Below are positions 5,901 through 56,675 of a stretch of 64,000 nt of DNA, in pieces. Position 1 is the stretch's first letter. Each line of letters opens with the position of its first letter. Under the pieces are notes generated by a model, which saw only the letters and a list, made by a program, of their open reading frames with translations, did no database searches and was not told the DNA's origin. The stretch is from Asterochloris sp. CNOR1 (taxonomy: Eukaryota > Chlorophyta > Trebouxiophyceae > Trebouxiales > Trebouxiaceae). A program made the translations under genes and the position numbers. The stretch covers positions 1,488,001 through 1,552,000 of the forward strand of contig OZ017759.1 of assembly GCA_963969365.1 (NCBI GenBank), written 5' to 3'.

Positions 5901-8900
5901 GAGTTCGACGAGGCCACCTGCCTGGCCATCGCGTGCCCCTCCTGCATGACTCTGGACCTGGCTCGCAGCTGCGCGGGGTATGTGACCACCATCATCAACA
6001 ATGCAGACCTTATTCCCACCGTCAGCCCCGGTGCGCTCACTCAAGGGGATGTCTCAGACACACGTGGTCTTGTCATGTCTAGTGCAAACCTCAATCCCAC
6101 TGTCAGCCCAGGTGTATAATACCAGGGAGTTGCCTGAGAAAGATGCAATCTGCCAGTGTCGCCACAAGGTCAACAATGCAGACCTCGCACCCCTTCCAGG
6201 CCCAGGCGCAGTGCCATGAGGGCTTCTGGAGACGCAGAGCTGCCTGCACCTCAGACTGGGGCAGCACCAGCTTTCACAGCAAATTAGAGGCAGCTTCTGC
6301 ACTCTTACAACACTGCATTTGGCAGGTCATGCACACGCAGCTCTCCCACTGCGCAGCTGGTTTGTGGCAGGCCATCCTATCAGCGATGCCAGCAGCTCAT
6401 GCTGTGCACGCTGTGCCTGAGGCCAGTCACCCCTCTGCACCTGGATCTGGCTCTGGTTTATGTAGTCATTGGGGGGCTGTGTTCCTGGACATGCAGGGCA
6501 ATACTTTTTGGGAGCTGGCAACAGGTGTCTGTTGTTCTCATCACCCATGCTGCACTGTTGCACATGTGCAGGTCAAGCCGCTTGCGCAGACATTGCAGCG
6601 CTGGCATGACCCTCAATGTCGCTGTGGCCCCGGCTGCGTCTGCAGGCTCCCTGGCAACACGGCTTCTGCAGGATCTGCGTGCGCTCTGAGGGAGGAGCTT
6701 ATGCGCAGCGGCTGCAATGAGGCCTTGAGGGCCTTGTTACACCATGATGTGCCCGGTTCATGTGCTCATCCCATGCCCCTAGTAGTTTCCCATGGACCTG
6801 GCAAGCTTTGCAGGCTCTCCCACTCGGTGTCTTCTCCTGCAGGCTCTGCAGACGCTCTAAGAGAAGAGGTCATGCGCAGCAGCTGGTATGAGGCCTTCAG
6901 GACTGACATGCGAAGCAGTGTGGTGGTGCGAGCCGTGGAGGACAGCCTGGGGCGTGTGGGGTCAGCCACTGTGGCAGCCACATCCTGGACCACCACACGC
7001 CTGGCACTCACAGGGCAGGGCCTCAGGTGGGGCTTCGAGAGCCTTCTTGCTGGCCAGGGGCGGCGCTGTGATTACTGACAGCCCGGGGTAAGTGGCCCCG
7101 TCTCGGTGGCAGCCACAGCCTGAATGACCACCTATTGTGCTGGCGATGGTGTGAGGATTGCGTGGCAGCGCTTGTTTCCTGCAGAACCTCACGTGCAGCT
7201 ATTTCAGGAGCCCTGCTGCACAGAGACACTGCAGGGGTTGAGACATGTCTCAATGTGTCTTACTCTTGTCTCCATGCCTGCAGGAGTTTCTGCCAGCGTC
7301 GCCCTGCTGGGATGAAGCGTGACCGGGATGGCAGCTTCACAGACCTGCAGGAAGAGATGGCAGCCAACTGCTCTGGTGGAGGTGAGAGCCAGCAGGCTGC
7401 ACGCCCTGTAGACTTTGGGGGTGCAGAGCCCAACAGAGACCTGCGCAAATTGTGAATGCAGCTGGCCCTGCTGCCCATGCTCCTCCTTGCGGAGGCCGTT
7501 TTGCATCTTGGCTGGCGTGCGCAAGGCTGTCAACATGCCTTGCTGCTGGCAAACTTTGCTCTCCGCTGGCCGGCACGCCTCCAGCACTTTGCAGCCATAA
7601 GGTTTGTGTATACACAAAGCTGCCACCATGCCTTGCCTACTGGCCAAATACCCGAGGTGGTGTGTTTTGCTGGCCAACACTTTGCTGCCTTGTTGTGTCC
7701 CCTAGAGGCTGCGCATGCCATGCTGACAATGGCATCTGGTGCAGGGAGTGAGGGGCCAGCCCCTCCAGTCAGTGGCATGGCAAACACTGCTGGGACAGCA
7801 CTTGATCTTGCACAGGGACAGATTGAGGTTGCCAGCAGCTTTGCAGCGGAGGCAGCCTCAGATCAGGTAATCTTGTCTGCTCACTCATTAGCACGGCTCA
7901 TCATCCTGTTGCGCAGGCGTTCCTCAGGCAACTCCTGAGTTGACACGAGACTGCATTGTCTTCACAACAGACAAATGGGGAAATCCACAGCTACGCTGCA
8001 GTTTTGGAAGCCACCCTGACCCACTTGCCATTGCCCCTCTTCACCCTGCATTGTGTCCACAGCATAGCTACCTTTGCTGTCTTGCAGCCTCAGGTGGCCT
8101 GAAGCTTACTCTCAGTACCTTTGGCGACTCAGTCAGTCTGTCACTGGATCTGCAGCCTCTGTGCCAGTCTCACACAGCGAACTGCTTTTGCCTGCCTGCA
8201 GGATGCAGGCTCGCCACAGTCACCACCCACCTGGGGCAGGGTCATGGGGGATCTCCAGTCCTGGGGGATGGCGCCCGAGTCCTCCTCAGAGCACCCCTTT
8301 TCAGCACCCACTAGCCCCGTGCACCGGCCTCAGCCCCTGTCACCGCCTGCAACCCTGCTAGGGCCAGGTCTGAGCGCCCACAGCACGCCTGAGCAAGCTG
8401 GCGCAAGCCTGCAAGAGCCCATCAGCCAGCAGCCGCGCCGCAAATCGCACAGGATTCTGAACTTTGCGCCAGAAACCCTTGGCAGGGTCGAAAACGCCGC
8501 TGCCGAGGCTGCTGCTCTGCAGCAACAGGAGCAGGAGCAGGGAGCTGCACGGCGCAGGGCCATGCAGCGCACCCAGAGCGCCGGCCTCCTGGAGGAACTG
8601 GGCAGCCAGGGTGAGTCTTTGTCTGCCCGAGTCTGGGTTGTCCTGGGAGTGTTTGTGGGTGCCGCATAGTGCTGGCCGGCCAGCAGCCGGCGGGCGCCCC
8701 AAGCAGCACACCCTTCTCACTGTCAGCGCCTTTTTTCAATCTCTTTAGGTGCTGGGGAGCAAGTCTTACACACGAGTCACCACTGTCTTGTGTCGCCAGT
8801 GGCTGACAGTCTCTCCCCGCAGTCTGTCGCAAGTTCCGCCAGCCATGTCGGCATTGTCCTAGCTTCACTGCGGCCTTCCTCTCAGCTCATCTTGATACTG

Positions 8901-11900
8901 CTGCAGGCAGTGTGTCAAGCGTGATTTGGTCTGGGGCTCAGCTTGCCTTTGGAACTGTTGCAGGCAGCGGGTCTGGCACCCTGGGCCGCCAGGGCTCAGG
9001 ACCCAGTGACATTGCAGGGGCAGCACCCTCTGCACCTGGCGGCTGGGGCCTGGGCCGCGTCTCTGCCCTGGGGCAGCAGGCAGGGCAGCTCACGCAGGCA
9101 GCCAGCACCCGTGTTGGCCAGACTGGTCGGACTGCTTACAGGTGGGCTTTTACTAGCAAGCAGCCACCTGGCACACACATGACGCCCTGCTGCTGCTATA
9201 GCTCCGATCTGGCTGATGGCTTCTCCACCGCAGCTTGAATTGTTTGCATGGCTTCACTTGACAAGCATGGTTTCACCTTGATCTCCCGAGGGTAGCCTGC
9301 AACGAGAGTGAGTGGCAAGGAGCAGTGCCTTCCCAGACTGCATGACGTGCAGCTTGGCATGCTTTGAATCCTCCTGGGAGCGCTTGGCGCCCTGCCCCCC
9401 ATGCCCTGGTACACGCAACCCAGCACATTCTGCAGGCACGTGCTACATCTTAGGGCTGCACAGCTGGCAATGAACCCATGCCGTGCACCCTGTTGCAGGC
9501 GAGCTGGGGACCTGGTGTCCCGGTGGTGGCTGCGGGACTGCCAACAGGCACAGTACCAGCCTGCGCTGCAGTGCGAGGGCGACCTCAGCCAGCAGCGGGC
9601 AGCCAGTGGGCTGCTGGCATTAGGAGACTTGCCGTCATCACCTCCGCAGGTGACTGCACCCACCTGGTGCCTGCTGCACACACCATGGCTTGGGATCTGA
9701 TGGTGGTGGGCTGTTGATGCCCCCCCCCCCCCCCCCCCCCCCGGGACACTTTAGCAGGTACCTCCTCATCTGCATCATTTTGAGTGAGGCATCGGTGCAG
9801 GCCAAGCGGCTGAGTCTGCCTGTCAGTGCTTGCGCAGGAGTGGCTTGCCTGTGCTGTTCTGGCACTTGTCATGCAGCATACATGTCCAAATGATCTATTC
9901 CTACCATGTTCAGTAACCAGGCAAGATTTGTGTAGGCTGAGCAGGATGTGGCAGCTTGGGGATGCATATGTCAGCACCTGTGCAGAGGCTCAGCTGTGCT
10001 GTGCAGGCGATGGTCATGCAGGCTGAGCAAGATGTGAACATGGTCCCAGACGACCTGCCCAGCCTCAGCGAGATAGATGCAGACATCTCCACAGTGCGCC
10101 AGGCAGTGGCTGCAGCAGAGGCAGAGGAGGAGCGCTTTGCCACAGAGGCACGACGGCAGCAGGGCTTTGGAAGCGAGGCCCCCTCCAGGCGGTCTGGTGC
10201 GCAATGTTACTGTGTCTGGGGCTCACTGTCCCTGCCTGCCTCCTGTTGTGTGACAGGAGCCTCACAGCGTTACAGCAGTCGTGTTGAGCTCTTCCTTTTG
10301 TTCTGGGGCCAAAGCCCAGCCGCCAGCCTCCCTGCTGTTGGGTGACTGGAACTCCACAGTGTTACAGCAGTCATAATCAGCTGTGCCATTGTCTCTGGGG
10401 CCATGGTGCGCTGCTCTGGCGGCAGGGTTCTGGCCTGCAAGGTACGCCAGTGAGCCTTGCTGCTATTAGGTTTCATGGGGTGCTTGATACAGCAAGGGTC
10501 GGAAGCAAGGGCCCCAGGAGATGTTGTGTGAACCACGCTGCTGTGCCTGAAGCTGTCTATAAAGTCTTTGTTGCAGCTGCGGTGCACATGGTCTGCCAGA
10601 CCTCTCTCTTGTGGTGCAGTCCCTCAGGGTGTTTGGTGCCTGGAAGGTCTACACAGCAGCAAAGACCTGAGTGCTCTTGCTGGGCACCTTTTGCTGGGTC
10701 CTTTCATTGCTTGATGGCTAAGTCCTGCTAACCGCCCTGCTCTCCCGCATCCTGGCTGCTGACATGAGACTCTACCTGCACTGCTCAATGAGTTTTGAAG
10801 TGTCGGCTTGCACTCAAGCTGCATGGACTGTCCTTGCTCCTGCTGTAGTCCTGCTGATGGAAATGTTCAGGCAGAACCCCACGTTGAGTTCAAACTGACC
10901 TCACCATGTGCCTACCTGCACGCAGACCACCTCATGGGCCTTTCAGGGGTGGACAGTCCACTGTGCTTGGAGGATGCTCGTGACTTGGGACACCAGCCTA
11001 CTGCGCAGGAGGAGCTGGCTCGGCGCTGCACCTACCCTGCAGGTGCGCTGCTGCCATGACCAGAGCAGGGTGGTATGCTGCACCACTGTGCATTGGCAGA
11101 GGCAGATGGAGCTGGCTTAGCACAGCACCTACCCAGCAGTTGCGCTGCTGCCCTGGGTAGAGCGGTTCTTTGGGCAGGCAGCCCGTGTGTGCGCCTACCA
11201 TGCATATTCCATGCATGTGCCAAAGACACACTTTGTTGGGCATTCAGGTGTTGCAGGGCAGAGCAGGCTATGTCCTGCATGTGCGTGCATCGGCAGAGGC
11301 AGGGACCTTGCTCGGCGGAGCATTTTACCTAGCAGCTTTGCTGCTGCCATGAGCAGAGCCATGTGACTTATGCAGATGCCAGACCTTCGTGCAGGCAGGG
11401 CATGCATACAGGCACATTGTGGGCAGGCATGAATGCTCCATTTCCATGCATGGCAGCATGACTGTTGCCAGCCCCTTGCACTGGCACAGCAGGTGTGCAG
11501 CTACAATGACAGCCTGACTGTCAAGGCAGTGCCTGGCTGAACTTGATGCTGTGCTGCACTGCAGGCAGGATCCTGCACCTGGTCCCAGCAGCGCTGGTTT
11601 ATGGGCCAGAGGCAGACAGTACAGGTAATAGCCCCTAGCTCCCCAATGGGTGCCCATGCATAGCCACAACTCCCACGAGAATTGCAGCCATTGCCTCTGG
11701 ACTGCACTGACGGCCTCCAGATGATGGATGGTCATGCTGAGGTCTGGGGGAGTGTGATGGAGTGGGAAACAAGCGAATGTGTCAAGCCTGTCATGCATGC
11801 AGCACCGTAGCATGTTGCAAAGCCCATCTGAGGCAACCTTCTGTGTCTGCTGCTGACGGCCACCCTGCTCCTTTCCTGACCTCCTGCAGATGAGCCAATG

Positions 11901-21113: not shown

Positions 21114-24100
21114 ATGCAGCAGACCTTTGCTACCAGTATGCTGAACAAGGCCGGGAGGAGCTTGAGCCACCATGTGAAACATGCAGTGAGGCTGCAGTGC
21201 TGTGCAAGCAGCACTCAGGCGGCCGTGCCAGCTCTCTCAGCATCAGAGGCCACATCCTCAAGGCGTGTACGCAAGAAGCAACTTAATGACCAGAAGGGGC
21301 GCGTGATGCTGAAAAACATGCCCCTGCCTGAGCTGGAGAGCTGGTGTCTGCAGCAGGGTGAGCTCAGGAATGGCAGACGCCAAAGTCATGGTTGCAACAA
21401 TGCTCAGCCTTCAGAGTACGCCCCGTTGCTGAGACCATTCCAGAGGCAGATGCCCCCAGCAGGCACATTCTGTGTGACATGCACATCATGCTGCCTGTAG
21501 CTGCGAGTGCCAGACAGAGCTGTCACATGTATATCTGCAGGGCCCTGTGCCTCATGGCGAATCATACGCCCCTGCATCTCTTCCCCTCATGCCAACCCAG
21601 CAGATGGTGTACTCATTGCTGCAGGGGAGAGTCCTAATAGAGCCCTGCAGTTGTGGCGGTGGATGTACAGCGACGACCTGTGGATCAAACGTGTCAAGGA
21701 CACCCTTGCTCAGCAAGGTGGCTTCTCTGCATCCTTCATGTGAGCTACTTCTGATGGCTCTCAAGCTGCCAAGAGGCCTGCGCAATGCAGGGCTTGCACA
21801 GGTCCTCATGCTCCTATTGCCTGCAGAGCACAGCTGGAGCCAATAGCCACCGTAGACGGCGGCCTGGAGCTGCAGCGAGTGCACTCAGCAGCAGACGGGA
21901 CGCGAAAGCTGGTGTTCCGTCTTACGGTGAGACATGCACCCAACAGCGGCTTTCAGCTGCTTCTTGGCGGCCCCTGGCTTGGCTGCAGAGCCGCTGCATC
22001 ACCTGTAGGGCCTCTATGGACATACAGGACAGATGCCTGGCATCGCCGTAAGTGCCACTGCATCTCCAAATGTCAGAATTCTCTCCTTCTTCATTGTGGT
22101 GCATTCTGCAGGCCAGTTGGCAGGCCAGCAAGGGGCTGTTTTCGATGCTATAGCCTGGTGGCTGCTGCTCTGCCGCCTGACACCCGCAGGACTGTGACCC
22201 TGCTGCAGACTGGGGAGAGTGCCGGCTTCCACGTGGAGACCGTGCTGATTCCTGTGGTGCGCAGCCAGGGGCGGCGTCCCCGCACAACTCTGTGCATCTC
22301 GTCCCAAGTGGGCTGCGCTATGAACTGCCAGTTCTGCTTCACCGGCAGGATGGGTCTCAAGTGAGCTGACTGCTTTAAGAGTGCTGCTTCTGCCTGTGGG
22401 CAATCAGCAGCAGCACTGGAAGCTTTCCTCAACCTTGTGTTCCCCTGTTGAATGTTTTAGTAGGCTGCTCTCTCACACTAAAAACCAGTCTGCGCAAGAG
22501 GAGAGCAAATGGGGTCAACATTGTGTCTCCTCCACCCTCCTCTTGCGCAGACTGGGTTTTGCACTCAGCAAGGGTGCAGTCTTGCCTGCCTGGCACATGA
22601 ACATCTGTAGGACTGTGACTTCTGTAGTTTCTGGAGGCTATCTTGCTTGCCACTGGGAAGGGAGTACTAGAGCACAAGTGCATCACAGAAGCCCAAGTTG
22701 AAGTCACTCACCCTTGCTCGGGGTGTTGCTGCTTGGCAGGGCAAACCTCAGCACAGCTCAGATCGTGGAGCAGATGGTGGAGGCACAACGCTTCCTGGCT
22801 TTGAAGGCGCAGGCAGCAGCTGCAGTAGGCAAGGCCGCACCCCATGGTGAGCGCTGCGCTTTTGGTCCGGCAGTGTTGATGGCAGACCCAGCTGCTCAAG
22901 GTGCGTGCAGCAGGTGCAGTATGCACTGTCGCACCCATGAGTGTGCGCTGCGCTTCAAGTGCAGTGGTGTTTACGTCAGAACAAGCTGCTTGGGGCGCGG
23001 GGTGCACCTGCCACAGGCAGAGCCAGTTTACAGCTAGTGCTGTGCTGCACCTGCTTGGACTTGCAATGAGTGCGTAGGGCAGGCACGACACAGATGGTGA
23101 CCGTGGCCTGAGCATGCAATGTCACTAGTCAGCACAGCACACAAAATCTCATTAGTTTTCCTGCAGCCACAGCTGCGCTGATGTACTGTGTAATACCGAC
23201 CCCTGACACTCATTCATATGCTCCAGCAGCAGCAGTTGCCTGCTGCCCCCTCATTGTCCCTGCTCCCCCCTGACGCCTGCAGTGTGCTGCAGGACACACC
23301 ACCGCCATCTTTGGGCATGAGGAAGCCCCTGCACAGTATGGAGGCATCCTCCGTGCTCCATGCCCCTGCTGCAGCTTCCCTGATGACCAGCTGCTGTGTC
23401 TGCTGCAGCCCCCATCACCAACGTTGTCTTCATGGGCATGGGGGAACCCTTGCACAACACGGACGCCGTCCTGGCAGCAGTAGACATTCTGTGCCACCCG
23501 CTGGGGCTGCACCTCTCCCATAACAAGGCAAGCCACGGCTGAGTGTGTCTGCTTATCTGTTGCTTCTATCACTCCCATGCTTCCTCCTGGGCAGGCTGCA
23601 CCTGCACCTCCAACCAGGGAATAGGATTTAGGGTGCGTTTGTCACTGTGCAGGTCACAGTGTCCACGGTGGGCCTGGTGCCTGACCTGGAGCACTTTGTG
23701 CGCCACTGCCCCGCGCAGCTGGCCGTCTCGCTGCACGCCACCACTGATGAGGTGAGCGGGCTGCATGCTGTGCTCCGCACTGCCGGCAAGCTTGCTCATG
23801 GCTGTGCAGCATGCACTTGCTGGTGCCAGACATCTGCTTGCCCTGATGTCATGTCCAATCCTCCTTGGAGATCAGTCAGGCCCGCATTTCATCCAAGCCA
23901 CCTGCATGGGAGGCTTCATGCCCATGCTAGCATTGGCTTAGCCTCTGCTAGCACGAATACGCAGGCAGCCGCTTTGTTGTCTCACTGCCTCAGATGCTGT
24001 ATGCATGGTGTCTCCCTGCCAGTCGTGCTGGCGTCAGCCCTCTACAGGACTGCAGTCAAATCCTAAGTCGCATCCTGCCCACCAACAGGCTGCCGCCACT

Positions 24101-42207: not shown

Positions 42208-45200
42208 ATGGGAGGCGGATTCTTTGATGAAGTGCACGGCAAAGATGGACGCCTGAAGTATCTGGTGAACGGGGAGTGGAAGGAGTCGACTAGTGGCCGT
42301 GGCCAGAAGGTCACCAACCCCACCACACAGAAGGCCTGTTTTGAGGTGCAAGGTGAGGTTTGTCAAGGGATCTGCACCATTCCTATCAGATCAGCTATAC
42401 TTTGTGCATGCTTGCTCAAGCAGCTGAGCTGCCAGAAGCAGCTTATCTGCCAGCAGCCAGTCCAGAGAAAGTTCCATAATCGACCTGCAGCGTGCACCCA
42501 GGATGAAGTGAATGGTGTCTTTGACGCCGCAAAGAAGGCGCAGAAGCAGTGGGCACGCACCCCGCTCTGGAAGAGGGCGGAGTACCTGCACAAGGTGTGT
42601 TCATGCACGACTGGGTCAGGCCATGCCGTGCAATGCATGCGCTGGGCAGCTGGTGGTGCTGCAATGTTTGCATCGAGGGGTGCCTGTGAGCGGCACCGTG
42701 CTGGCCAACTAAGACCAATCGTGCAACACCCTGGTGATGCATAGAGTCAGCTAAGGTATCTATCACATGTCCTGTCCTCACGCCCTGCACTTAGGGGAAA
42801 GGGGGGGGCGGCAAGCCCTGCGGCTAGCTAGAATGGCACTTGACATGGAATTGAGCGATGGCATGGGATATGGCAGCAAAGCGGGCAAAACAATTTGTGT
42901 GGCTGTGCACTGAGCACACAGCCCCTTATGCTGCATCGCAACATAGCATCCACATCCATTGCCTGGGTTGATGGAGTCCGTCGGGGGCCGCTGTGCAAAC
43001 CCCTTGATCCAATTCGTAAGCTGGGAAGCTGTGTGCGCTGGATAGCAATGCTCCGCCCGTAGGAGTTCCCTGCATTTTTGCAGCCTTGTGGAGTCAGGTG
43101 GCACCTGCCCAACTTGCAGACACCATCCTCCAGGGGGAAGCAGAAACCCCAGTCGCACTCCTGCTGCTCCAACCAGCAGATTGCATAGCCCTGGCCCACA
43201 TCCTACACAGCCTCCACTCATTTGCCACAAGCTTTCCTCACCACCAGCAACCCGTCGCAACCTCCTGATTGAGGGTTTGCAAGAGAGCGCCCAGCTAGGT
43301 CGTCGCCGGCGTGCATCGTCTGCACCTCACAAGCACCTCTCCTGCAGATGGACAGCCCGCAGGACGATGCACAGCCAGTGTGTTTCCAGAACGAACCTCA
43401 AAAAGTGCCATGGCTGTAGGTGGACGCCCTCCTCAAAGAGAATGCGCAGCCCATTGCGGATGCCCTGGTGAAAGAGATTGCCAAGCCAGCGAAGGATGCC
43501 ATGACAGAGGTCGTGCGCAGCGGTGACCTCATTGCGTACACTGCTGAGGAGGCTGTGCGGTACTACGGGGAGGGCCAGTTCCTGATGTCAGACTCCTTCC
43601 CAGGGCAGGAGCGCAGCAAGCTGTGCCTCTCCTCTAAGGTGAGTAGCCCTGCCTGAGCTGCTTGCAAGGGGGGTCTTGTAGGAAAGGGGGATCCCTGTCC
43701 TTCCTTGGGCAGAAGAGCTTCCCTGTCCTCTCACGTAAGCTCGGCTACGCTTATGTGGGTCATGTGCCGGGCAGGGGTCAGTCTCCATGTCCATCTTGCT
43801 GCCCTGGGCAGGAATTGACCCTCAAGGTGGGCAGCAAGCCTTGTGTGGCATGCCTGGAGTGCCGCTGGCCTGCAGCAACGGACTGGTGTCAAGCCAAGGC
43901 AGCAGCGTGAGCATCCGCCTGAGCCGGCTGCCTCTTTGGAGGTCACATGAACTATCAGCTCAGGTGGCATAAGGTTTGCCTGTCAACATGAGCTCTCTGC
44001 CTGAGCAGCATGCATGCAGGGGCGCCTGCAGCAAGGGGCATGGGCAAGTCTGGCATGCTATGGCGCAGGCAGCGCGCAAATGGCATTTTGAGGAATATCT
44101 CTCTGACGCAGTGTGTCTCTGAGCTTCCCTGTACACACCAGATCTTTTGTGCTGCTGTGCAGGTGCCTCTGGGAGTGGTGCTGTGCATCCCACCGTTCAA
44201 CTACCCGGTGAGCACCAAAGCTTGTCCTCGGTCAAGCTGCTGGCTGAGCACCACCCTGTCATGCGTTTGGCTGCTGCTGGTTCTGAGCATGCTGGAGGAG
44301 GGCGTGTTAACTGCAACTGCTCCCCGTCCCTTGCAGGTCAACCTGGCTGTCTCCAAAATTGCCCCAGCCCTGATGGGTGGCAACACTGTGGTGCTCAAGC
44401 CCCCCTCACAGGGCGCTGCCTCCGCTGTGCTGATGTCGCAGACCTTTGTGAAGGCCGGCATCCCTCCAGGCGTGTTCAACTGCGTGACAGGTGAGGGCAG
44501 TCAACAGCCGATGCTCCACATCTGCAAAGTCAAGCATGCTGCGTTTACCAAACAGTGCAGCCCCTGTGGTGTGGCAGGAGGCTTGCATGCAAGCTTAGCT
44601 GCCGTCCCACACACAGGCTGTGGTCAGCAAGCCAGCTGGATGGCATGACCTGCATTGCCAGTAACGTAAACGATTGATGTTGCCCTGTAGGCAAGGGCTC
44701 TGAGATTGGAGACTTCCTGACCTGCCACCCGGCCGTCAACTGCATCAGCTTCACTGGAGGCGACACCGGCCTCAGCATCAGCAAGAAGGTGAGCAGGCAT
44801 GGGCGGCCAGCTGGCCGTAAGATTGCTGGGCCACAGAGGTGCCCGTCCATGGCAGCACCATGTGTGAGCAGTCTTTGGTCATATACATCAACAGCTAGCA
44901 ACCCGCCTGGTGTGTCTGGGAGTAGCTTTCATGCAAGTGCTGGTGATGCTGCTCCTTCATGAGCTGCCGACAGTCAGCATGATGATGGTTTAGAATCCAA
45001 TTGCGCTGCACTATTGGTTGCCTGCAGCTTTACTTTGGAGCCCTTGACCTTGCTGCTCCCCCCCAAAGGAGACTGCTCTCCTCTGGGGTGATGAGATCAT
45101 CACTCTACGTCGCACACTGGCATGCAAATGCTGCTCTTTCCCCGGGGTGCTGCTGACACATGCATGCGTCTGCAGGCTGGCATGATTCCTATCCAGATGG

Positions 45201-48195
45201 AGCTGGGCGGCAAGGACGCCTGCATAATCTGTGCTGATGCAGACCTGGAGCTGGCATCCAAGAACATTGTGAAAGTGAGCAGCAGTGGCCCTCACCGGTT
45301 GCCGGATCATCCGAGGTGTTGCACAGTTGACATTGTGCTGGCAGCCCCGCCTCCCTTGCCATCACATTGCAGCGCTTGCCGCTCGCTGACGCTCTTTTTG
45401 CTTGTGCACGTTGCCAGCAGCAGTGGGCCTGTGTCTAGTTCATGCCAGCCTTGCCCTTGCATCTCCAGCCATTGCATTGCATGTATGGCTGTGCAGCCAT
45501 TGTGGCTAGCTCTGCTGCCGCACCAGCCCCTGCAGCTCACCGCAGCCTGATGCTCCCTCAATCAGGCCTGGTACTGTTGGCCCTGGCTGCCCTACATGGC
45601 AGACGTATCCCCTGAGGCCATCATGGCTCAGATAGGTTGGCATGTCGAGTCCACAATCAACTGATCGGCTTGAGCAGTGCTCTCATCCGTGACCCAGCAC
45701 ACTGCTGTGTGGCTCTCAGCTTCAGTGCTTGGGGCAGCACGGTAGTCAGCAACCTCTGCATGGACACCTTCGTGCCTGCCTGGCAGGCCTGCCTGGCAGC
45801 TTCCCACAGCAGCACAGATTTGGGTTGACAGCATCGATGCGCCACCCTCCTTGGTGCAGGTTGGCCCCACCCACACCAGATGACATGCTGCTGTAGTCTG
45901 GCGCCGTTGCTCTGGATCAACTGTGTGCATCATGGGCGCCCTGCTGCAGGTGTCCTCACCTGATGCACCCAGTGCTGCACGGCTGTCCCTGAAAGCACTC
46001 TGTAGTATCATGCCTTGGAGGATCCGCCCTTGCAGGAGGCCTCATTTCGAAGCAGGAACTTTTCAGAAGTGTGTGTTATTGCCTGCAGGGTGGTTTCAGC
46101 TACAGTGGGCAGCGCTGCACGGCAGTGAAGGTGGTCTTGGTGCACGAGAGTGTCGCAGATGAGCTGGTGGAGAAGGTGTTGAAGGGAGTCAAGGGGCTGT
46201 CAGTCGGCAAGCCAGAGGTGGGTTCAGCGGGCTAGGTTGTGTACTGCACACTCTCTGCAGAAATGCAAGAAGCTGTCTCAGGTCACGTCAGGAACCAACT
46301 GTGAAGCGTTCAGGGGCAAGCCGTGGGTGGGTGCTGCCTGCAGCAGATCAGAATGTTGCCCATGCCTTGACAAAAGGGGAGGATCTTTGGGCTGCAAGTC
46401 ATGTCATTGCTCCAGACAGCCTCACCAGGAGCTGCACCGGGGCCACCATCTGTCTGCCACCAGTCGCTGTTGTATGAAACCTGCAGGACGACTGCGCAAT
46501 CACCCCCGTGATCAGCGAGTCGAGCGCCAACTTCATTGAGGGCCTGGTGAAGGATGCGGAGCAGCAGGGTGCCAAGCTGCTGACGCCCTACAAGCGTGAG
46601 GGGAACCTCATCTGGCCTGTCCTGATCGACCATGTGACCCAGGTGAGCAGGCTCATGCCCCATGCGTCTGGTGGTCATGCTGGCATCCCTTGCGATTGAT
46701 GCTCAGCAAGCCAGGCGCATGGTCTGTCCTGTCCTACCAGGATCCTAGCCCTCTGTGCTAAAGAAGCGTTGACACAGAAGACAGAGTACATACTACACAT
46801 TTTGCTTGTCTTTGTACACCACTGGATGGACAGCTTGAAGAACTGCAGATGACAGCAGACAACTGCAGCCACAGTCACCTATTCTAGTCTGTTGTCCCTG
46901 TGCTCCTGGTCCTTGTCTGGTCTGCCGTCCCTGTGCTCCAGGTCCTTTCTCAGCAGTAGGGCTCAGTTGCGCATTCTCCTCAGAAGCAGTCCTGTGCCAT
47001 GCTTGACCTTCCTGCAGACTTGGTCAGCCTGTCTCTCCTGTCACGACAGATCACATGTATCCTTGCATTGGACAAGCGCGAACTTGAAGGCAGTGAGGCC
47101 TCCTTGCTGCGGCCATTTGCGCTGTTTCCATTGCAGTTGCAGTGCAGCCTGCGACTGCCAGTTCCACTGCCTCTCTCCATGCCAAGACAGCAGATGATCC
47201 TTGCGCTGCATGACTTCAGCCACGTTGGCTGGTTTGCAGAAAATGCGCATTGCGTGGGAGGAACCATTTGGCCCAGTGGTGCCCATCATCCGTGTGAAGA
47301 CAGTCGAGGACGCCATTGACCACTGCAATGCCAACAACCTGGCTCTGCAGGTCAGTGGCTGCGCTCTAATGCTTGAGGAGTTGAGCTGTGTCCATGTGGG
47401 CACTCCCAGCATGTCCGGCATGTTCAGTGTCGCCTGACGCAAGCCTCTAGAGGGCACACTGAAGGAGGTGCAGCTTGTTCTGCCTGCTTCTGTAAGAGTG
47501 TGGGGCATGAACTTCTGGGCTCCTGCTATGTGTGACACAGGTGTTGCTGCAGGTGGCCTTTTGGCTTCAAAGTCTCTCGTTGCCACGTCTAGGGCATCGT
47601 TGCTGAATTATTCTTTGCGAGAGGCTACAGTCATCTGGTGCTGATGTGCTGACTGAACGCGGCGGCGCCTGCAGGGCTGTGTCTTCACCCGCGACATCAA
47701 CCAGGCCATCCGCATCTCAGATGCCATGGAGACTGGCACCGTCCAGGTCAGCCGGGTTTGCTACGATGAGATTTATGCCTTGGGCTCCCTCTTGCCCTTC
47801 ACAGTTGCTGATTGGAGGCATCTCTGCCCTGTCAATGCTTCTGCCCTGTTGCTGAGCTGTTCATGCTCGGGTGTGCAGGTCAACTCGGCACCTGCTCGAG
47901 GGCCCGACCACTTCCCCTTCCAGGTAAGAGCTCTGTCGAGGTGCTTGGCATTGAACTTGGGGTCCCGAAAATCAACTTCATTACATACAAGTTGGCATCT
48001 TGCAGGGATTCAGGGACTCAGGCATCGGCTCTCAGGGCATCAAGAACTCTTTGGCTATGATGGTGAAAGACAAGACAACGGTGAGCGTTTGCTGCTGGAG
48101 CTCATTCCCTGGTCAACGGACGTCACATAAGCCTGAGGCTCTACCGCTTGCTGCAGGTTCTCAACCTGGACAAGCCCAGCTACACAATGGGTTGA
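42208..48195 (+). CDS. GAPN: Non-phosphorylating NADP glyceraldehyde-3-phosphate dehydrogenase
   Basis: Cytosolic ALDH11-family enzyme oxidising glyceraldehyde-3-phosphate directly to 3-phosphoglycerate with NADP+, supplying NADPH in photosynthetic cells. Fourteen exons: 42208-42352, 42491-42594, 43420-43638, 44163-44207, 44337-44490, 44691-44788, 45176-45274, 46089-46217, 46487-46642, 47240-47350, 47675-47746, 47879-47923, 48006-48080, 48157-48195; 1491 nt, 496 aa, the same length as the plant enzyme. The catalytic Cys falls at 298 in SGQRCTA and the general base Glu at 264 in MELGGKD, matching plant numbering. KPAKD, IPPFNYP, SFTGGDTG, RIAWEEPFGP and SAPARGPDHFPFQ are all present. It ends in SYTMG. 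Every exon is GT-AG and in phase. No transit peptide is seen. Confidence 0.97.
42595..43419. other. Odd-composition GapN intron 2
   Basis: This 825-base intron differs from its neighbours in having fewer TGCAG words and carries a 160-codon open frame on the minus strand (43260-42778) rich in Cys, Gly and Pro. No domain was recognised. It could be an inserted element fragment or chance. No terminal repeats or target-site duplication were found. Confidence 0.35.
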
Positions 48196-49187
48196 GAGAC
48201 AGATGAAAGAAGATGACTTCTGGGCAGCGCCAGAGTGGCGCCTGCCCACGCTTCAATCTTGTTCTGGAAACATGTTCACCCAACTGTGCAGCCCAGGCAA
48301 TCTTCCTGCAGGTGCAGGCCTTGTGAACATGCTGTCGACCACTGAACATCACTATTCTTTTATGCATTGCTGTTACACTTCAATAAGTTGACACGGCCAT
48401 GGGCAGCATGGGGTTGTCAAACAAGAATCCAAAGCATAAGAATACTCAACAAGCTCCTGGAATCCGTTTCAAAGTACATACACGTCAGCCCTCTCCAGCC
48501 AACAGCAGCAAAGTGCTTCGGCCTACTTGCAATTCCGCGAAGAACAACTAGGCAGCTGGGTGAAACTGGCTGCATACTATAGAGTGCCATGTAAGGTGTC
48601 ACATATGGTTGCCAGAGATGTTACAATGATGTGGAACTGGTGTGCAGCATACTCCTCTTGGAGGATTTCCCCTAAACTAGGGTGAAGCTGCACCAATGAG
48701 GACCTCCTGCATGCGTCATGGTAGTGCTGGTGGCCATGCAGCACGCTCTTGTCTGTGCAGCACAACTGCCGCACTGTCAGCCTGAAGGATGCCTGCCGCC
48801 ACAGCTCCAGAGTACCTGCTCTGCAACAGAGCCTTCAGTACCATACTGCTTGCCCTGCAGGTAGAGAAGAGGAGACAGGAATCGCAAGGAAAGTCACGCT
48901 CCAGTGCTGGCCGCTCGCTGCAGTAGGCTACATTCCTTTGCCCATCCCTGAGTGCTCCCATGATTAGTGTTTATTGTTGCACAAGTTTGACTGGCAGGTC
49001 ACCCCATGCATGTGCCCCTTTCAGGCCCTTTAGCACTGCCCCGCTTCTGTTTCAGTCAACAATGCATGCCGTGCAGCAGGTGCTGATAAGCACGTCTCCC
49101 ATGATGATTTGCAATGAACTAGCTTCACAGCCTCGCCGAACAGCAACTACACATGCACACAGACCAGTTTCTTGTATTGATTGTCGT
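48196..49187. other. Convergent 3' spacer, GapN / M3 peptidase
   Basis: These 992 bases hold both 3' UTRs. TGTAA occurs on the plus strand at 48590-48594 (about 395 bases after the GapN stop) and on the minus strand at 48625-48621 (about 563 bases after the M3 stop). The two transcripts may end within a few tens of bases of each other or overlap. No gene was seen. Confidence 0.45.
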
Positions 49188-52100
49188 TTAAGTCGCGTAC
49201 TCATTCTTGATCCACTCTGAAAAGCGCCCGACAGCACTGCCAATGCCTCCTGCGTCTTTACTGTCAACAATGACTGCAGCGCAATTATACCATTTGACAA
49301 GAGCACAACCATCACAAGGCTGACAGCACAAAGACACCAGGGGCAATGCAGTGCACACCTTGGTCACCATGTACCAGCCTAACATACATGTCCAGCTCAG
49401 GCTCCTGCCCTGCAGCAGCAGCGTGATCAGGAGTAAGCAGCAAGCCTTTACACAGTCAGCAGCAAGCCTCCACCCAGGCAGCACTAATAGATTTGGGCTG
49501 CCATGGCAAGGTGGCCATGGGAGCTGGCCTGTGCCCACCTGCTTTCAGCTTCGGGCCCGCTTTGACAGCCTTATGATATTCTTTCTCCTCTTCTCTCAGC
49601 TTGTCTGGGACACTTGTACGCAGCTCAGCCAGCCAAGCATCAGCAGACAAAGGGGCCCCTGCAGTCCCACATGGGGAGTTGCAGGGCAGGCAAGTGTGGT
49701 ATGAGCTCATGTACGCTCTGGTCACGAAGGTATTGGTGCAGGACTCCACCGCCAGGCTGGCACGTGCGGCCGCGGGAGTCTCTACCTTGGGGTTGCAGCT
49801 GGACGGCAGGAGAAGTTACACTGCCCTCATGGGCAGGACAGGATGTGGCCAAGAGCGGCCGCAACTGCACTTTGCTGGCAGTGGGGCAGCTGGTGCCTGG
49901 CTCACCTGTCAGGCTTTGCACGAGTTCAAGGTAGGCAGTCCCATTGCCTGGGCTCCAGTACCCCTCCTCCAGTTCCTTTCCCACCTGCAATTGTTGACAG
50001 AAACATTCATGCACCAATTCATGGGTTGAGCACCTCTGCCGTCAGATTTCTGCTACATACCTTGTCGTTGTCGACGATCTGGTGGTACTTGCGCTTGAGG
50101 TAATGTCGCGTCTGCAGAAAGAAATGTTCTAATGATCAGGGTGATTCAAGCAAGGGGAGTTGATGGCAGCAAGGAGTGGACAAGGCGTCACATCATCAGG
50201 CAATGGAAGCAAGGGTTGGCAGGTGTGCCACTGGCCCGGCATTCAGGTGTACAGCCCTCTCTGTTTGTTCAGCTCACAAAAGCAGCGTGCATGACTTACG
50301 GGCAGCAGACACAAACCTTGGCACCTAAAACCCCCAGCAAGCCTTGCCTGATGCACAGCCATCTCAGCCAAGACATAAGCATGGTAGTAAGCACTGGACT
50401 CATCAGCCAGAATGTGAGGCACAGCCAGAAGAGGCCTGCAGGCAAGCATGAAGCCTATCAGGTAGAGTCTTGCCTGGTGCACAGCCATTTCGGCCAGAAC
50501 ATATGCGTGGCAGTAGGCGCTTGCTTCATCAGCCAAGATGTGGGGCACGGCTGGCAGAGGCCTACACAGGCAACAGTCCAGGCAGCGCTCCAGGACAGCG
50601 CTTTCATGGACAACGCTTTCATGAAGAGGATTAGAGCAGGGGGCTTTGCCTTCATGGCGAGCACTGGGCACACTGCACAGACTTGGCGCGCAAGGCCTGC
50701 ACACTGTACACATAATGTGTGCAGGCACAGACAATACGTCTAGCTTGGTGTGTCACAAGGCCAAATTTTGGGGCTTCAAGCATCTGAAAAGGCAGGCCAG
50801 GCCTCACCTCGGACTGGGGCGTCCCTCAATGTCAATTTCAACCTGGGCAGCCAGGGCCTGTACTTCCTCTGGAGTCACCTGCAGCCAGGGGCAGCATCAA
50901 TGCTGTCAGTGTCCCATGCCAGTCTCACATGGGCTGAAGCAGTAATGGCATTCAATGTTCCAGCTGCTGGAAACTCAACGCCTGCATACCCTGAGCAAGC
51001 CATTGCTGATAACCAAGTGTTACATGTGTGACTGCCAATCTGCAGCTGCAGGCTGCCTTCAAGCTGGAACTCTGGCAGATTGGTCTGAAATTGCCTCTGC
51101 ATGGGAATGCAGGGCAGCCTGCAGCTGCAGCCGGCCAAACCTGCTCCATGCGCCAAACCTCGCTCCGTCCTGGCTTTAGCCCACAGCTGGTACAAAGTCT
51201 GCCAGACGTCAACCAAGTGCCTACCTTCTCCTCTGGCAGCTCATAGAGAGCTTTCTCAAAAAACGGGACCGCCAGCATTGCGCGGAGCCCGAAAACTGAG
51301 AAAGGGTGCGTCTGCTCGATACTGCGCTTGATGAGGTCCCATGGCATGGGGTTGCCCTCGCTGCACGCAGGCATCTGAGGCTACAATAAACACAAACTGC
51401 CTGCCATGCCTGCAGCGAGTGCTGCAAAGGAGTTGATAAGGGCCCCAGCCACACAATCACCCTGGCTGCAAACAGGGAGTCATGCAGGAATTCTGCGGGG
51501 TTGCAGCAGTGCTCTGCAGGTGCTAATCTGGGCTTAGTGCAGCAGCTGCGCTAGCAGCAGGCAGGCAGCAAGCAGGCAGTGCTGTGCAGGTACAGGCTCG
51601 GTTCAGGGGCACGGGACGGCCTTGCTGCTTCAGACTGACCTGTCCAGCGCATAGCGGGCCATCCAGTCCGCATCCGATGCCAGGGAGTCTAGGAACATGC
51701 TTTGTGTCTCAGCATAGGCTACAGACGTCGGTGCACGCTCCTGCAGGGCCCCCGGCACACCAGCCGTCAGCTCATGCGTGGCCTGGAGCTGTGGCCTGCA
51801 CAGTGTCTACTGATGCAAGCTCAGCACAACTCTGCCCCCCCTAGGACCTGCTAGAGGGTTTCAAGAGGCTGTCTGCAATGCGTGCAAACGCTGCCAGCAT
51901 GCCAGGCTGACCTGAGAGAAGAGGGGTGACCCCTGTGTGACGTTTGCAAAGTGGGCTGCATGGCCACCTGCATGGCACCCAGCAAGGCAGCACTGTGACA
52001 GCAAGTTGAGAGGCAAAGGCAATAGCCAAGACCCACTGGAGACCCAAGCAGCAAGCGCTCATGCTGCACGCAGCACATTGCCTAGCTAATGGGTCAACGT

Positions 52101-55100
52101 ACGCTGCAAGTGAGGCTGCCAGCAGCAGCAGTCCTGGCAATGGCAGGAGGACAGGCAGGCAAACGGAGGGCCGCCGCGTCACCACTCAGAATGCAGAGCA
52201 GGCAGAGGCTAGCACTCCAGTAGGTGGTGGCAATGAAGGATACCACCAGCCGTGAGGCGGGTCTCACCCTCATGCAAAAGAGTCACTAGGGCTGTCTTCC
52301 CACTGCCGATTGCGGAGGGATCGGCCAGGCTGGTGAAGTTGGCCTGGCTGGGGGTCCAAGTGCCATCCTCCTGCAGCCAAAGTGGCGAGGTGAGACAACA
52401 TCATGGTGGCCAGATTACTGGTGGTGCATCTGTCATCCTGCTGCAGGCAGCTCGGCAGGTTCTGCTGCGGGCTGCTGTGCAGGACTGGTGCTGTGCTCAT
52501 TGCTAGGTCAAGCACCCAGCTGGAAGGAAGCACATGGCTGGCGAGCAATGCCTTGTCTGGCATTCGAGCACGACAACTGTTGCTGCATTGCACTCTCAGC
52601 GCCAACTTGGCTAAGCAGAGGCATTCCCACCTGCTTCCAGGCACAGCGTGGCCAGTGGCAGAAGCCATTGCTGTACTTTCCTTCCCTGTCGCACAAGTCC
52701 AGCTGCATGGTGGCCCCTCGGTATCTGATGCCCAGCGCAGCAAAGGTTCTTGCCCACACATCCTGCAGGCACACATCACAGCGTCAATCGGCCGTTAAGA
52801 TGTGTTCCTAAGCGGCGCATTTTGACTGGGCACCCACGGCAGGCATAGCAGCCCCAGGTCAGGAAGCCAGCCATGAATGTTGCAATTGCAGAGGAATCAA
52901 TGGCGGCATGGCAGCCTGAGCAGCAGGAGCAGCTGGGCATCCTTTCAGTGACAGCAGGCCCCTGCAGCCAGCAGCGTACAGCTACCATGCCATGACAGCC
53001 TTGCTCATGGCTGAGGGGGCCAGGCTCCGGCAGACATTCAAGTCACTAAATGAAGCGGGCTCTGACAGCCACACGGTGTGGTAGGCATGTCTGCCACTGA
53101 GATCAGCAGGTCTTGACACTCACAAGAGGCTGTAGGCGGGTCTTGGCGCTCAGATCAGGCTGATGGCAGGCAAGTTCGTATGCCACAGCAGGCAGCAGGT
53201 GCAGATTCCAGCCCAGGCTCTTGGAAACTGCGTATGCCAGTTTGAGCCTCAGTCCTGGCAGCCAGTGCACTCTGACCGCAGGCAGGCAGACCAACCAAAC
53301 AAATAGCTCAGGCAGCAGCATTGGATATTTCTGCTGCAGGCAACAGGCTCACCACTGCAGAGATGAACTGGAAGTAGGGGTCCTGCTCGCGGTCAAGGTC
53401 TCCTGCAGTGCAGTCAGAACTGGCACTGAAGCAGATGCTGCCTGTGAAGGGGATCCTGTGCAGCCGTATGCACCCTCCGATGGGCGCGCTTGCTGCACTG
53501 GGGGCATTCCCAGCCTCAACAGCTGGGTTGGTATCGCAGCAAAGGGCACAGAGCAGTCAAAGCTCTGCTGTGGGCACCGCAGCAAGGCTGGCGTGTACTG
53601 CCACAGGTGGCTGCCAAAGGAGGTGCCTAACTGCCGGCACCATCTCACACCATCTAGCTTCTGAGTCCAGGGCTGCCCTGGCAGCCTGACCCTTCTCTGC
53701 ACCAGGAACCCATGCAGCTGCAGCAACTGCATCGACAAGAGAGTCGAGTGCCGCCCCAAAGCCTCACACCTGTCAAAGTACAGGAGGAACAGAGCGGAAA
53801 GGGGGTTTGGGGACACCTGGAAGCATGGTGCTGCCTTGCAGCCCTTGCCACTGCAGGCATGCACTGCCAAGACAGCCAATCCTGCACGCCCAGCAGTAGC
53901 ACCGAGGGCACTGGCACCTGACAGCATGAAGTTCTCGTTCCAAGGCTGCCCTGCCGCCTCTCCCTTGTCGGCAGCCAGGCGCTTGCGGGCGCCCTGCATG
54001 ATGATCCGCGACTGCTCCTCCAGGGGGCTCAGCATCTCAAACAGGCGGCGCTTGCTGAACCCCTCAGCCTGCTGCACCTGCAGCAGTGCAGACACAGGTC
54101 TTGACAGCACCCACACTGCTGAGCTATAATGGGTGCTGTTGCAGCCCTCTGCAAGTGGCATTGCAGCTCCACACAGGCAGCGCTTGCAGAGGGTCTTGGC
54201 AGGGTCTGTTGCCCTAAAGGTGCACACCTTAGCTTGCTCAACCCTCAGCCTTAGCTTGCTCAAGCCTCAGCCTGCTGCACCTGCAGATCCGTGACCAGCA
54301 GCATAGGGCGGGTGCATGTTTAATCAGCCTCTGCCATCGTCAGACTGCTCTGGGCGAAGGTCGCCCCACATGGGTAGAATATGGCTGCAATATCACATGT
54401 CAACCATCGCAGCCAGCGATTTGATGACTGCAGCACCCTCAGTCATGCAGCTGCTCCACCCCATGCTCACCTTCATGTCATAGTAATCCTCAAATCCTGC
54501 AACCTTGGCCAGGCGGTTGCGCAGCTTGACGATCTCGCAGAACTTCCCAACAATGTGGGGGCCAATGGAGCGCATGGCCTGCAGAGCACTCTCAGGAAGG
54601 CTCAGGAGGTGTGAGCTCTGCAGCAGCAGCAGGACAGCCTGGTGGATGAGGTGCCACGAAGCTGGATGCCATTGACTTGTGCACAAACAGCTGGGAAAAG
54701 GCAGGGCTCGCTGTGTGCAAGCATTCTGGAGAGACAAGGCCAGGCTCTGCTTGGGGTGCCTGTCAGCACGTCCTGGTCCATGCAGAACACACAGTCTGCT
54801 GCAGAAGAGGCATACCACTCCATGCACCTGTCCTTCACAATCACATGACATGAGCGCCAGCCTGCATGTTGGAGCAGCCTGCACCCTCCAGCCATATCAG
54901 TGCATCATCGGGGGGTGTGCAGGCGCAGGCTGCTGCCAGGTCCTCTGCAGGATGCAACCTTCAAACACATGTTGCTGCGCAGCACAGCTGCTTGCCTCAT
55001 GGTGGCCCGATTGCGGCTGCTTGTGCAGAGTGCCATGGTGTGTGCCGTGTGGAGCGTGCCTGCTGCATGCCCAACCGCTGAGTCCACCTGCAGGTCACCT

Positions 55101-56675
55101 CTCAGCAGGCTACAAGATGGCCTCCCAGGCAAGCACCCAGATACAGCGCTTACCTCCCAGCAGGCTTTGCGGGTGGCCTCATCAGGGTTGGTCCTCATTG
55201 TGTTGCGCAGCTGCACCGAGGATGCCTTCCGAAACTCGCCGCTCTTTGGGTCCTTGTAGCCCAGCTGCATTTTGTTGCGCCACTGTGCGAGGTCAGCCTC
55301 CAGCTGGTTTAGCCTCTCCTGCAGCAGCAGACAATACAGATCTCCTTGCTTGCACTGTGCCCAGCAGGCTGCCACAACTGCCTGCGCCACTCAGCCAGGA
55401 CCTTACCCTACGGCCAGTTAGATATGGCGTTTCGTTGCTTATATGCTGGTGGCTGGTGGTGCCGCTGGGCCACGCACCACACAGGGCAGCAAGGCCCGCG
55501 GGCCTCCAACTGCACCTCCATCTGCTGCTGTAGCAAGCAAAGGAGCACTGCCATCCACCTGGCGAAGGCAGGTGCTGGCAGAAATGCATCAGTGCAAAGT
55601 CGATGCATGTGCATGCAATAGAGGGCAGAAAGCATGTTCTGTGCTCGCCAGCAGGGCAGCTCCTAATATCTGAGCACGCAAGCAGCTCCTGAAGCACTGG
55701 CACTGAGGCACTTTCTGACGACTGGCACCTGGGCATGCACTGATGCTTGCGCAAGACGCAGGAATCACTGGCACTGTGTTCAACTTGAGCTGCTATACCA
55801 GCTGACGGGACAGGAACCAAGACCTTGCAGGGTACACCACAGCCCTTTCTGGCATCCTACCTGCAAATCCATGTGCCGCGCCTCTGGCTCCCCTTTGATA
55901 TGTTATCGAGCCATCAGGAGAGCAGATGCAGCAGCAGGCTGTCGGCTCCAAAGCAGGCAGCTCAGGTGTCACACCAGATGCACCTTTATCTCTCGCGCCT
56001 CTGGGTCCTCAGTGATGTAGCAGGCAAAGGTCTTGTCAAAAACAGAGAGGACGTGGCGCTGGGCTGGCGTCAGGTCAGGTGTTTTTAGCAGCTCCCTGAC
56101 TCGATTCAGGTTCGCAGGGTCCCCCAACCAGTCATCTAGAGCAGTCTTTGTCTGCGCCAGCTGGGTTGAGCTATTGCCCTGCACACAGAGTGAGCTGTCT
56201 TTGCTGCTACATGTGGAGCATGTCCAGAGTCAGCGGGCAGCATGTGAGGCATCATCCAAGGCACTGTCTGCTTCAGCTTTATTGAGCTGTTGCGCTGAGC
56301 AGTGCAGGTGCAAGCAGATGGAGACCTGAGCGTGACCAGGCAAACTACGTCAGCAGCAAGCTTGCTTTGATGCAGAGTCCTACATCAAGCACTCATTATG
56401 GAAGCCAATAGCTTGTCCAGTATCGGCAGGATGCTGCATCAGAGCATTGGTGCTAGCTCTGCACTGGATGCGGCAGTCACCTTCAGACCCATCTTTGTTG
56501 CCCAGAAGTTGTCTTCAAAGGCTCTATGGCGCACTTCATACTCTTTGTTTAGCTCTTGAATGGTCGTACTGGCAGAGGCCATGGTTGCAACCGTTATCGA
56601 CTTCCTACCTGCCACAGGCTTGATCTTTGAAAGCTTACAACAGAGCTGGGGGTGCAATCTGAGGCCTCTCAACAT
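49188..56675 (-). CDS. M3-family zinc oligopeptidase
   Basis: Thimet-type zinc metallopeptidase of the M3 / oligoendopeptidase F group; probably degrades short peptides in organelles. Seventeen exons: 56675-56481, 56178-55984, 55318-55154, 54578-54471, 54077-53918, 53402-53353, 52762-52631, 52370-52268, 51967-51912, 51740-51640, 51360-51225, 50878-50808, one of 50561-50474 or 50435-50348, 50111-50061, 49984-49906, 49658-49539, 49273-49188; 1896 nt, 631 aa. The zinc motif is HEGGH (368-372), split by an intron, with the third ligand Glu near 399 in AYAETQSMF. The exon 13 region supplies VPHILADE and the Tyr-Tyr-His segment of the active site. The first ATG (56675) adds 31 basic, Ser/Leu-rich residues, likely an organellar presequence; a second ATG at 56582 would give a cytosolic form. 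Exon 13 has GC donors in both copies. Confidence 0.93.
50348..50435 (-). other. M3 peptidase alternative exon 13, copy 2 (Tyr version)
   Basis: This is an 88-nt exon with acceptor CCTGCAG and donor CAG|GCAAGG. It gives the more family-like sequence (PLLAVPHILADESS, then Tyr-Tyr-His). Its start is 126 bases from that of copy 1, leaving only 38 bases between the copies, too short for a normal intron. The frame is open across both copies and the linker. Confidence 0.82.
50474..50561 (-). other. M3 peptidase alternative exon 13, copy 1 (Cys version)
   Basis: This is an 88-nt exon candidate with acceptor GTGTAG and donor CAG|GCAAGA. It starts in phase 2 and ends in phase 0, exactly as copy 2 does. 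Relative to copy 2 it changes Leu494 to Pro, Ser504 to Ala and Tyr508 to Cys, with 15 further codons differing only synonymously. Confidence 0.75.

Follow-up and report, generated by a model that had tools for sequence, protein, structure and literature searches.

Tandem copies of exon 13 in the single-copy M3 peptidase gene of Asterochloris sp. CNOR1: probable mutually exclusive exons that would exchange an invariant active-site tyrosine for cysteine

In a gene for an M3-type zinc oligopeptidase of the lichen-associated green alga Asterochloris sp. CNOR1, exon 13 is present as two adjacent copies (A, the Tyr variant, and B, the Cys variant; Table 1), and the arrangement of reading frames, splice signals and conserved residues makes it probable that the two are mutually exclusive exons, with copy A as the default and copy B as the alternative. 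The gene lies in a stretch of 64,000 nt (hereafter the window) on contig 14 of a genome of 56.4 Mb in 21 contigs; for comparison, the Asterochloris glomerata genome has been reported at 56 Mb with about nine introns per gene (PMC6652019). A first-pass annotation made from the letters of the window had described two open 88-nt copies at an offset of 126, both running from phase 2 to phase 0, and both copies were recovered with exactly these properties at the positions given in Table 1. The underlying repeat is 78% identical over 101 nt with the same offset of 126, and the encoded segments share 26 of 29 residues.

Each copy is preceded by an acceptor AG and followed by a GC donor, as the first-pass annotation had also stated, and both end in CAG|GCAAG. 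These are the only GC donors in the gene, where the 16 other donors are GT. The acceptor of copy B ends in TAG, compared with CAG for the gene's 17 other acceptors, and for this reason copy A is taken as the presumed default. The linker between the copies contains no GT on the gene strand, so that copy B can be left only through its GC donor or by read-through, and at 38 nt the linker is shorter than the shortest (76 nt) of the 14 intron lengths listed for the gene. Because such a gap is too short for a normal intron, copies A and B could not be joined to each other. Splicing with copy A alone or copy B alone yields a product of 617 aa, whereas joining both copies without the linker leads to a stop at 499 aa and omission of both to a stop at 501 aa; a fused 214-nt exon that retains copy B, linker and copy A stays open and gives 659 aa. 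The frame argument originally advanced for this pair is thereby borne out.

Table 1. Features of the M3 peptidase gene around the duplicated exon (positions are those of the window).
Feature	Position	Strand	Details
Whole M3 peptidase gene	49188..56582	-	exons 1-12, one of 13B/13A, 14-18
Start ATG	56582	-	M3 peptidase gene
Last exon	49273-49188	-	stop included
Exon 12, shared upstream partner	50808..50878	-	phase 2 end, ...CCGAG|GTGAGG
Exon 13 copy B, Cys variant, 88 nt	50474..50561	-	G|PLPAVPHILADEASAYCHAYVLAEMAVHQ; acceptor ...GTGTAG, donor CAG|GCAAGA
Linker between copies, 38 nt	50436..50473	-	begins GCAAG, ends CTGCAG; fused-frame reading ARLYLIGFMLAC
Exon 13 copy A, Tyr variant, 88 nt	50348..50435	-	G|PLLAVPHILADESSAYYHAYVLAEMAVHQ; acceptor CTGCAG, donor CAG|GCAAGG
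GTAAGT donor implied by P0001	50294..50299	-	copy A extended 48 nt, 16 extra residues
Exon 14, shared downstream partner	50061..50111	-	TRHYLKRKYHQIVDNDK, phase 0
Predicted copy-B protein junction with exon 14			...DEASAYCHAYVLAEM... then TRHYLKRKY

In the mechanism proposed here, tandem duplication of a 126-nt unit carrying exon 13 would have taken place in an ancestor of the present Asterochloris lineage. Exon 12 would then join copy A through the stronger CTGCAG acceptor, probably by default, or alternatively copy B through the weaker GTGTAG acceptor, and the chosen copy would be joined to exon 14 from its GC donor; transcripts with both copies joined, or with neither, would shift the frame. 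Joint inclusion may be prevented by a steric clash, as the 38-nt spacing, which has the same codon length in three relatives, falls below the threshold of about 50 nt between donor and branch point that is given for steric mutual exclusion (PMC7969005; PMC5740500). Human mutually exclusive pairs were recognized by homology, length, frame, spacing under 50 nt and a frame shift on joint inclusion (PMC5740500). In the window the exons are adjacent, homologous and of equal length, their phases are compatible, their joint splicing without the linker is non-productive, and both are under selection and kept in relatives (three, compared as protein sequences only). Mutually exclusive splicing is the most likely reading; the geometry agrees with that of the human pairs and of a green-algal pair demonstrated by RT-PCR (see below).

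The two copies have diverged under purifying selection. Of their 29 codons, 11 are the same in both, 15 carry synonymous differences and three change the residue (Leu/Pro, Ser/Ala and Tyr/Cys), the same counts as were obtained by hand at first pass, and the 20 nucleotide differences are distributed 3/2/15 over codon positions 1/2/3. The comparison of rates between the copies that had been suggested along with those counts gives pS = 0.76, a saturated value beyond correction, versus pN = 0.046. When the same 20 differences were placed at random, a mean of 11.9 residues changed, and three or fewer changed in 0 of 100,000 trials, which upholds the earlier claim of selection over the pair. Whether copy B is constrained in its own right is a separate matter: were copy B alone neutral, three or fewer changed residues would be expected with P = 0.017, 0.18 or 0.56 if half, a third or a quarter of the changes, respectively, had occurred on it, and since this probability depends on the share assumed, the test within the window is by itself no proof of constraint on B. 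Comparison with homologues places all three residue changes on copy B, making it the more divergent of the two. A scan for short-range pairs over 264 kb (the window plus 20 stretches of 10 kb; sliding windows of 87 nt, offsets 90-799) returned the exon pair at p = 1.8e-4; as this value is uncorrected for 1,027 overlapping candidate windows, the random-placement simulation is the stronger test. Throughout the 264 kb a comparable codon-position signature was found only in polyubiquitin-like repeats, and the eight other families of direct repeats in the window have no signature like that of the exon pair.

Evidence bearing on copy B itself comes from relatives. A search with the two-copy reading frame returned 86 proteins, and the first three of these, P0121, P0122 and P0123, hold both copies in one frame; their source contigs differ (the longest being 44 kb, 4.06 Mb and 677 kb, respectively), and their identities of 93, 97 and 84% suggest that they represent other Asterochloris lineages. 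The comparison with them is at the protein level only. In all three, copy B has Ala and Cys at codons 12 and 16 (counted from 0), where copy A has Ser and Tyr, and the linker keeps its codon length and remains open, reading ARL[YC]L[IL]GFMLAC. Ala-Arg-Leu follows both copies in each of the three, which implies GC as the first two intron bases. Degeneration of one copy in relatives, an outcome that the first-pass annotation had named as speaking against its proposal, is seen in none of them, as both copies are kept in all three. With the three relatives pooled, codon differences from the window number 0/87 in copy A and 2/82 in copy B (where P0121 is without the first four codons and its start residue was excluded), or 2/169 for the exons together. 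Both differences in copy B are at codon 2 (from 0), which is Pro in the window and Leu in P0122 and P0123, so that the residues of the window's copy B are kept at 28/29 positions in P0122, 28/29 in P0123 and all 24 comparable positions in P0121. The linker differs at 4/39 codons (13 per sequence, including one crossing into copy A; Fisher exact 0.012 versus exons), and the intron after copy A at 26/67 (Fisher exact 2e-14 versus exons), a count raised by what looks like a frame shift in P0123 and drawing on only nine codons from P0122.

This pattern bears on the possibility that copy A alone makes the protein, with copy B either unused or regulatory, such that inclusion of both copies or faulty splicing would produce a frameshifted, degraded transcript. 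Such an arrangement would fit the catalogued protein P0001, which carries copy A, as well as the TAG acceptor of copy B among 17 CAG acceptors and the replacement in copy B of a Tyr shared by all 56 sequences of an alignment. However, a dead or regulatory exon would have no reason to keep its residues, and copy B has kept them in P0121-P0123 while the downstream intron diverged; a protein made from copy A alone is regarded as unlikely. Tandem copies are also a classic problem of genome assembly, but an assembly or collapse artefact is scarcely credible for copies that are only 78% identical and that recur as a similar pair in three other sequences.

More distant relatives give some indication of the age of the duplication. 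Reading-frame fragments resembling a Trebouxia protein, P0003 (P0124, P0125, P0128 and P0136), contain one copy with no intron before the next residues. Elsewhere an intron exactly after the HQ at the end of the exon is apparent, with a GT start (Val being read next) in P0157, P0161, P0167, P0168, P0175 and P0203 and possibly with a GC start in P0165; thus either this position predates the duplication or it was targeted more than once. The duplication probably postdates the divergence of Trebouxia-like relatives and predates that of the four sequences which carry it, although Trebouxia may instead have lost the second copy. Viral contigs scanned with the two-copy reading frame gave 26 pattern matches, none of which encodes a relative.

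P0001, a catalogued protein with the source name jgi/Astpho2 that stands for a cluster of six, carries copy A but ends it differently: the window spliced with copy A extended to 50300 reproduces P0001 at 633/633 aa. The DNA is accordingly from the alga behind P0001, whose source name points to Asterochloris, or from a very close strain. GTAAGT, the donor so implied, is a full fit to the donor consensus. Were the P0001 model right, copy A would extend to this GTAAGT, the GC donors would be unused and copy B would be a remnant; the stretch is moreover open in frame in P0121. Against this, the frame of the 48-nt extension is apparently shifted in P0123, and the reading frame of P0122 ends after nine codons. 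Splicing from the GC donors predicts that the motif continues into TR or similar residues, and 203 of 221 motif rows do so; of the 18 other rows, seven come from P0001 and P0121-P0123. The 16 extra residues would also fall inside, and break, helix 485-506 of the structure model described below. Taken together these observations make the P0001 model very unlikely, and they suggest that the catalogued model misplaces the end of exon 13 and that GC donors give rise to such errors; the extension could have been produced by a GT-only rule for donors.

A fused exon, in which both copies and the linker are kept to give a protein with 42 extra residues and a doubled active-site segment, deserves separate consideration, since the frame is open and in phase through the linker and since the three relatives preserve the length and frame of the linker and most of its residues, a fact that fusion explains equally well. 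Nevertheless, 38 nt that contain a donor and an acceptor may be kept for that alone. P0001 does not use the fused exon, none of the 120 proteins listed has two motif rows (P0119 gave no row), and fusion would, according to the structure model, place a second loop and helix in the core of a fold that is predicted well. The fused exon is considered rather unlikely. For mutually exclusive splicing, the predicted copy-B product was also sought directly. Of 689 candidates, 69 proteins matched a spliced copy-B query (205 aa), and in none of them does copy B continue into exon 14; the matches include P0123, with both copies unspliced, while P0265 is a reading frame that spans exon 11 and intron 11 in a close relative. 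This negative result speaks against mutually exclusive splicing, though isoforms would be hidden inside clusters formed at 90%, and so do the use of copy A with another donor in P0001 and the location of all three residue changes on copy B, one of them at an invariant Tyr.

The principal consequence of choosing one copy or the other would be at residue 477 of the 617-aa product, which is Tyr with copy A and Cys with copy B (the first-pass annotation had numbered this residue 508). The motif was compared in 206 proteins, which yielded 205 rows (none for four proteins, two each for three); its second Tyr is Tyr in 198, Met in three and Cys in four, and three of the four Cys rows are the B copies themselves. 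The Ser/Ala change, by comparison, is common among homologues in these 205 rows, and the Tyr/Cys change is not. In an alignment of 56 sequences, P0001 included, the motif Tyr is invariant, as are His475, Tyr484 and Tyr488 (P0002 numbering). The remaining Cys row is P0169, an 83-aa sequence from another lineage but of the same peptidase subfamily, in which the motif reads SSCYCHGY with Cys at the near-invariant Tyr position; this substitution may have arisen independently. Met occurs for the motif Tyr in P0081, P0085 and P0102 (source-named Chytriomyces sp. MP71, Chytriomyces hyalinus and Obelidium mucronatum).

When aligned to thimet oligopeptidase, the switched Tyr falls opposite chain residue 594 of that enzyme, which we take to be Tyr609 provided that chain residues His458, Glu459 and His462 are His473, Glu474 and His477 in the usual numbering. 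Tyr612 of thimet oligopeptidase has a transition-state role, and Tyr605 and Tyr612 matter for catalysis; the equivalents of the Tyr609/Tyr612 pair in ACE are presumably Tyr520 and Tyr523. The first-pass annotation had described this region of M3 peptidases as the source of His and Tyr residues that bind substrate and transition state, and had placed the switched Tyr in the active site. The active-site location stands, but an effect of the switch on transition-state binding is not borne out, as it is the equivalent of Tyr609 that is switched and the Tyr aligned with Tyr612 is the same in both copies. In the structure model of P0002, exon 13 comprises a loop region followed by helix 485-506. The outcome of alternative splicing would be two 617-aa isoforms differing chiefly by Tyr477 or Cys477 in an active-site loop and helix. 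The likely effect would be a change in the rate or in the choice of substrate, or else a thiol-sensitive isoform. The more specific idea that a splicing switch provides a redox-sensitive or substrate-shifted isoform, for example in desiccation or symbiosis, is doubtful; one M3 enzyme, thimet oligopeptidase, is reported to be under thiol control, though via other cysteines (PMC5494303).

Assignment of the gene to the M3 family is based on several observations. It encodes an HEGGH zinc motif with the downstream Glu, and H345, E346, H349 and E376 (P0002 numbering) are invariant in the 56-sequence alignment. With a preliminary 612-aa model as the query (in which exon 4 was begun 39 nt too early and the intron after exon 16 was read into), the Pfam profile PF01432 scored 69.1 bits, above its curated cutoff of 27, whereas two NCBIfam oligoendopeptidase profiles were below theirs (TIGR02289, 25.3 bits versus 442.35; TIGR02290, 21.1 bits versus 561.7). 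The P0002 model (pLDDT 92.5) has the M3 fold and matches neurolysin, Dcp and ACE, with sequence identity of 13-18% between P0002 and solved M3 enzymes. Compared with thimet oligopeptidase, neurolysin and Dcp, the peptidase of the window belongs to a separate subfamily, ACE-like in fold too, with members listed from green algae, chytrids and other protists. The N-terminal profile of this subfamily (alignment positions 4-226) matches ACE and ACE2 sequences in a search of PDB sequences, a link between families M3 and M2. When the genome was searched with the peptidase, 17/17 matches at E<=0.001 among the best candidates scored were inside the same gene; no paralogue that could supply the Cys form was found among them, and by this search the gene is apparently single-copy.

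Mutually exclusive exons are known in green algae, and the Asterochloris pair would be a further case of a known phenomenon. In Volvox carteri, exons 4 and 5 of cyn23 are mutually exclusive, and both isoforms were shown by RT-PCR (PMC4378016); this is the one RT-PCR-verified pair found in the green-algal literature examined. The two systems are alike in that adjacent exons of equal length not divisible by three (106 nt in cyn23, 88 nt here) change residues at a functional site. They differ in that 13 residues change in cyn23 and three here, one of which is an invariant active-site Tyr, in that both donors are GC here, and in that the cyn23 isoforms were verified by RT-PCR while the Asterochloris pair is known from sequence alone. 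Exons 4a and 4b of OGDH are likewise duplicated exons in which a short distance from donor to branch point blocks joining, although the intron separating them measures 118-131 nt across birds and mammals and its branch points are mapped, as against a spacing of 38 nt here (PMC7969005). A GC donor at an alternative splice has a parallel in intron 10 of C. elegans let-2, where regulated alternative splicing is reported to require a weak GC donor (PMC7242645, citing Farrer 2002); that role was shown for let-2, and in the present case GC occurs at both copies in four sequences. Titles and abstract openings on mutually exclusive exons of green or Trebouxia-type algae, or on Asterochloris splicing, contain no mention of the exon pair, which is not proof that it is unpublished. 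If the pair is spliced as proposed, it could be used to test cleanly whether exon choice alters the chemistry of an enzyme in a unicellular alga, for the pair is compact, relatives have retained it, and the one residue that it changes in the catalytic pocket has a role open to assay.

Some other features of this region were observed in passing. The polyubiquitin-like repeats (L014 and L015; contig 14, ~1,449,100-1,455,000), which we take from their sequence to be polyubiquitin, have a unit spacing of 566 nt with further pairs at 396 and 415 nt, and lie about 80 kb from the peptidase gene. Direct repeats of 68-94 nt and 72-79% identity are found in the window at 6663-6730 with 6834-6901, at 22804-22991 and at 10231-10403, and these are probably not coding duplicates. 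A neighbouring gene with many exons on the + strand (window ~45180-48200) is presumably aldehyde dehydrogenase-like, as judged from a motif.
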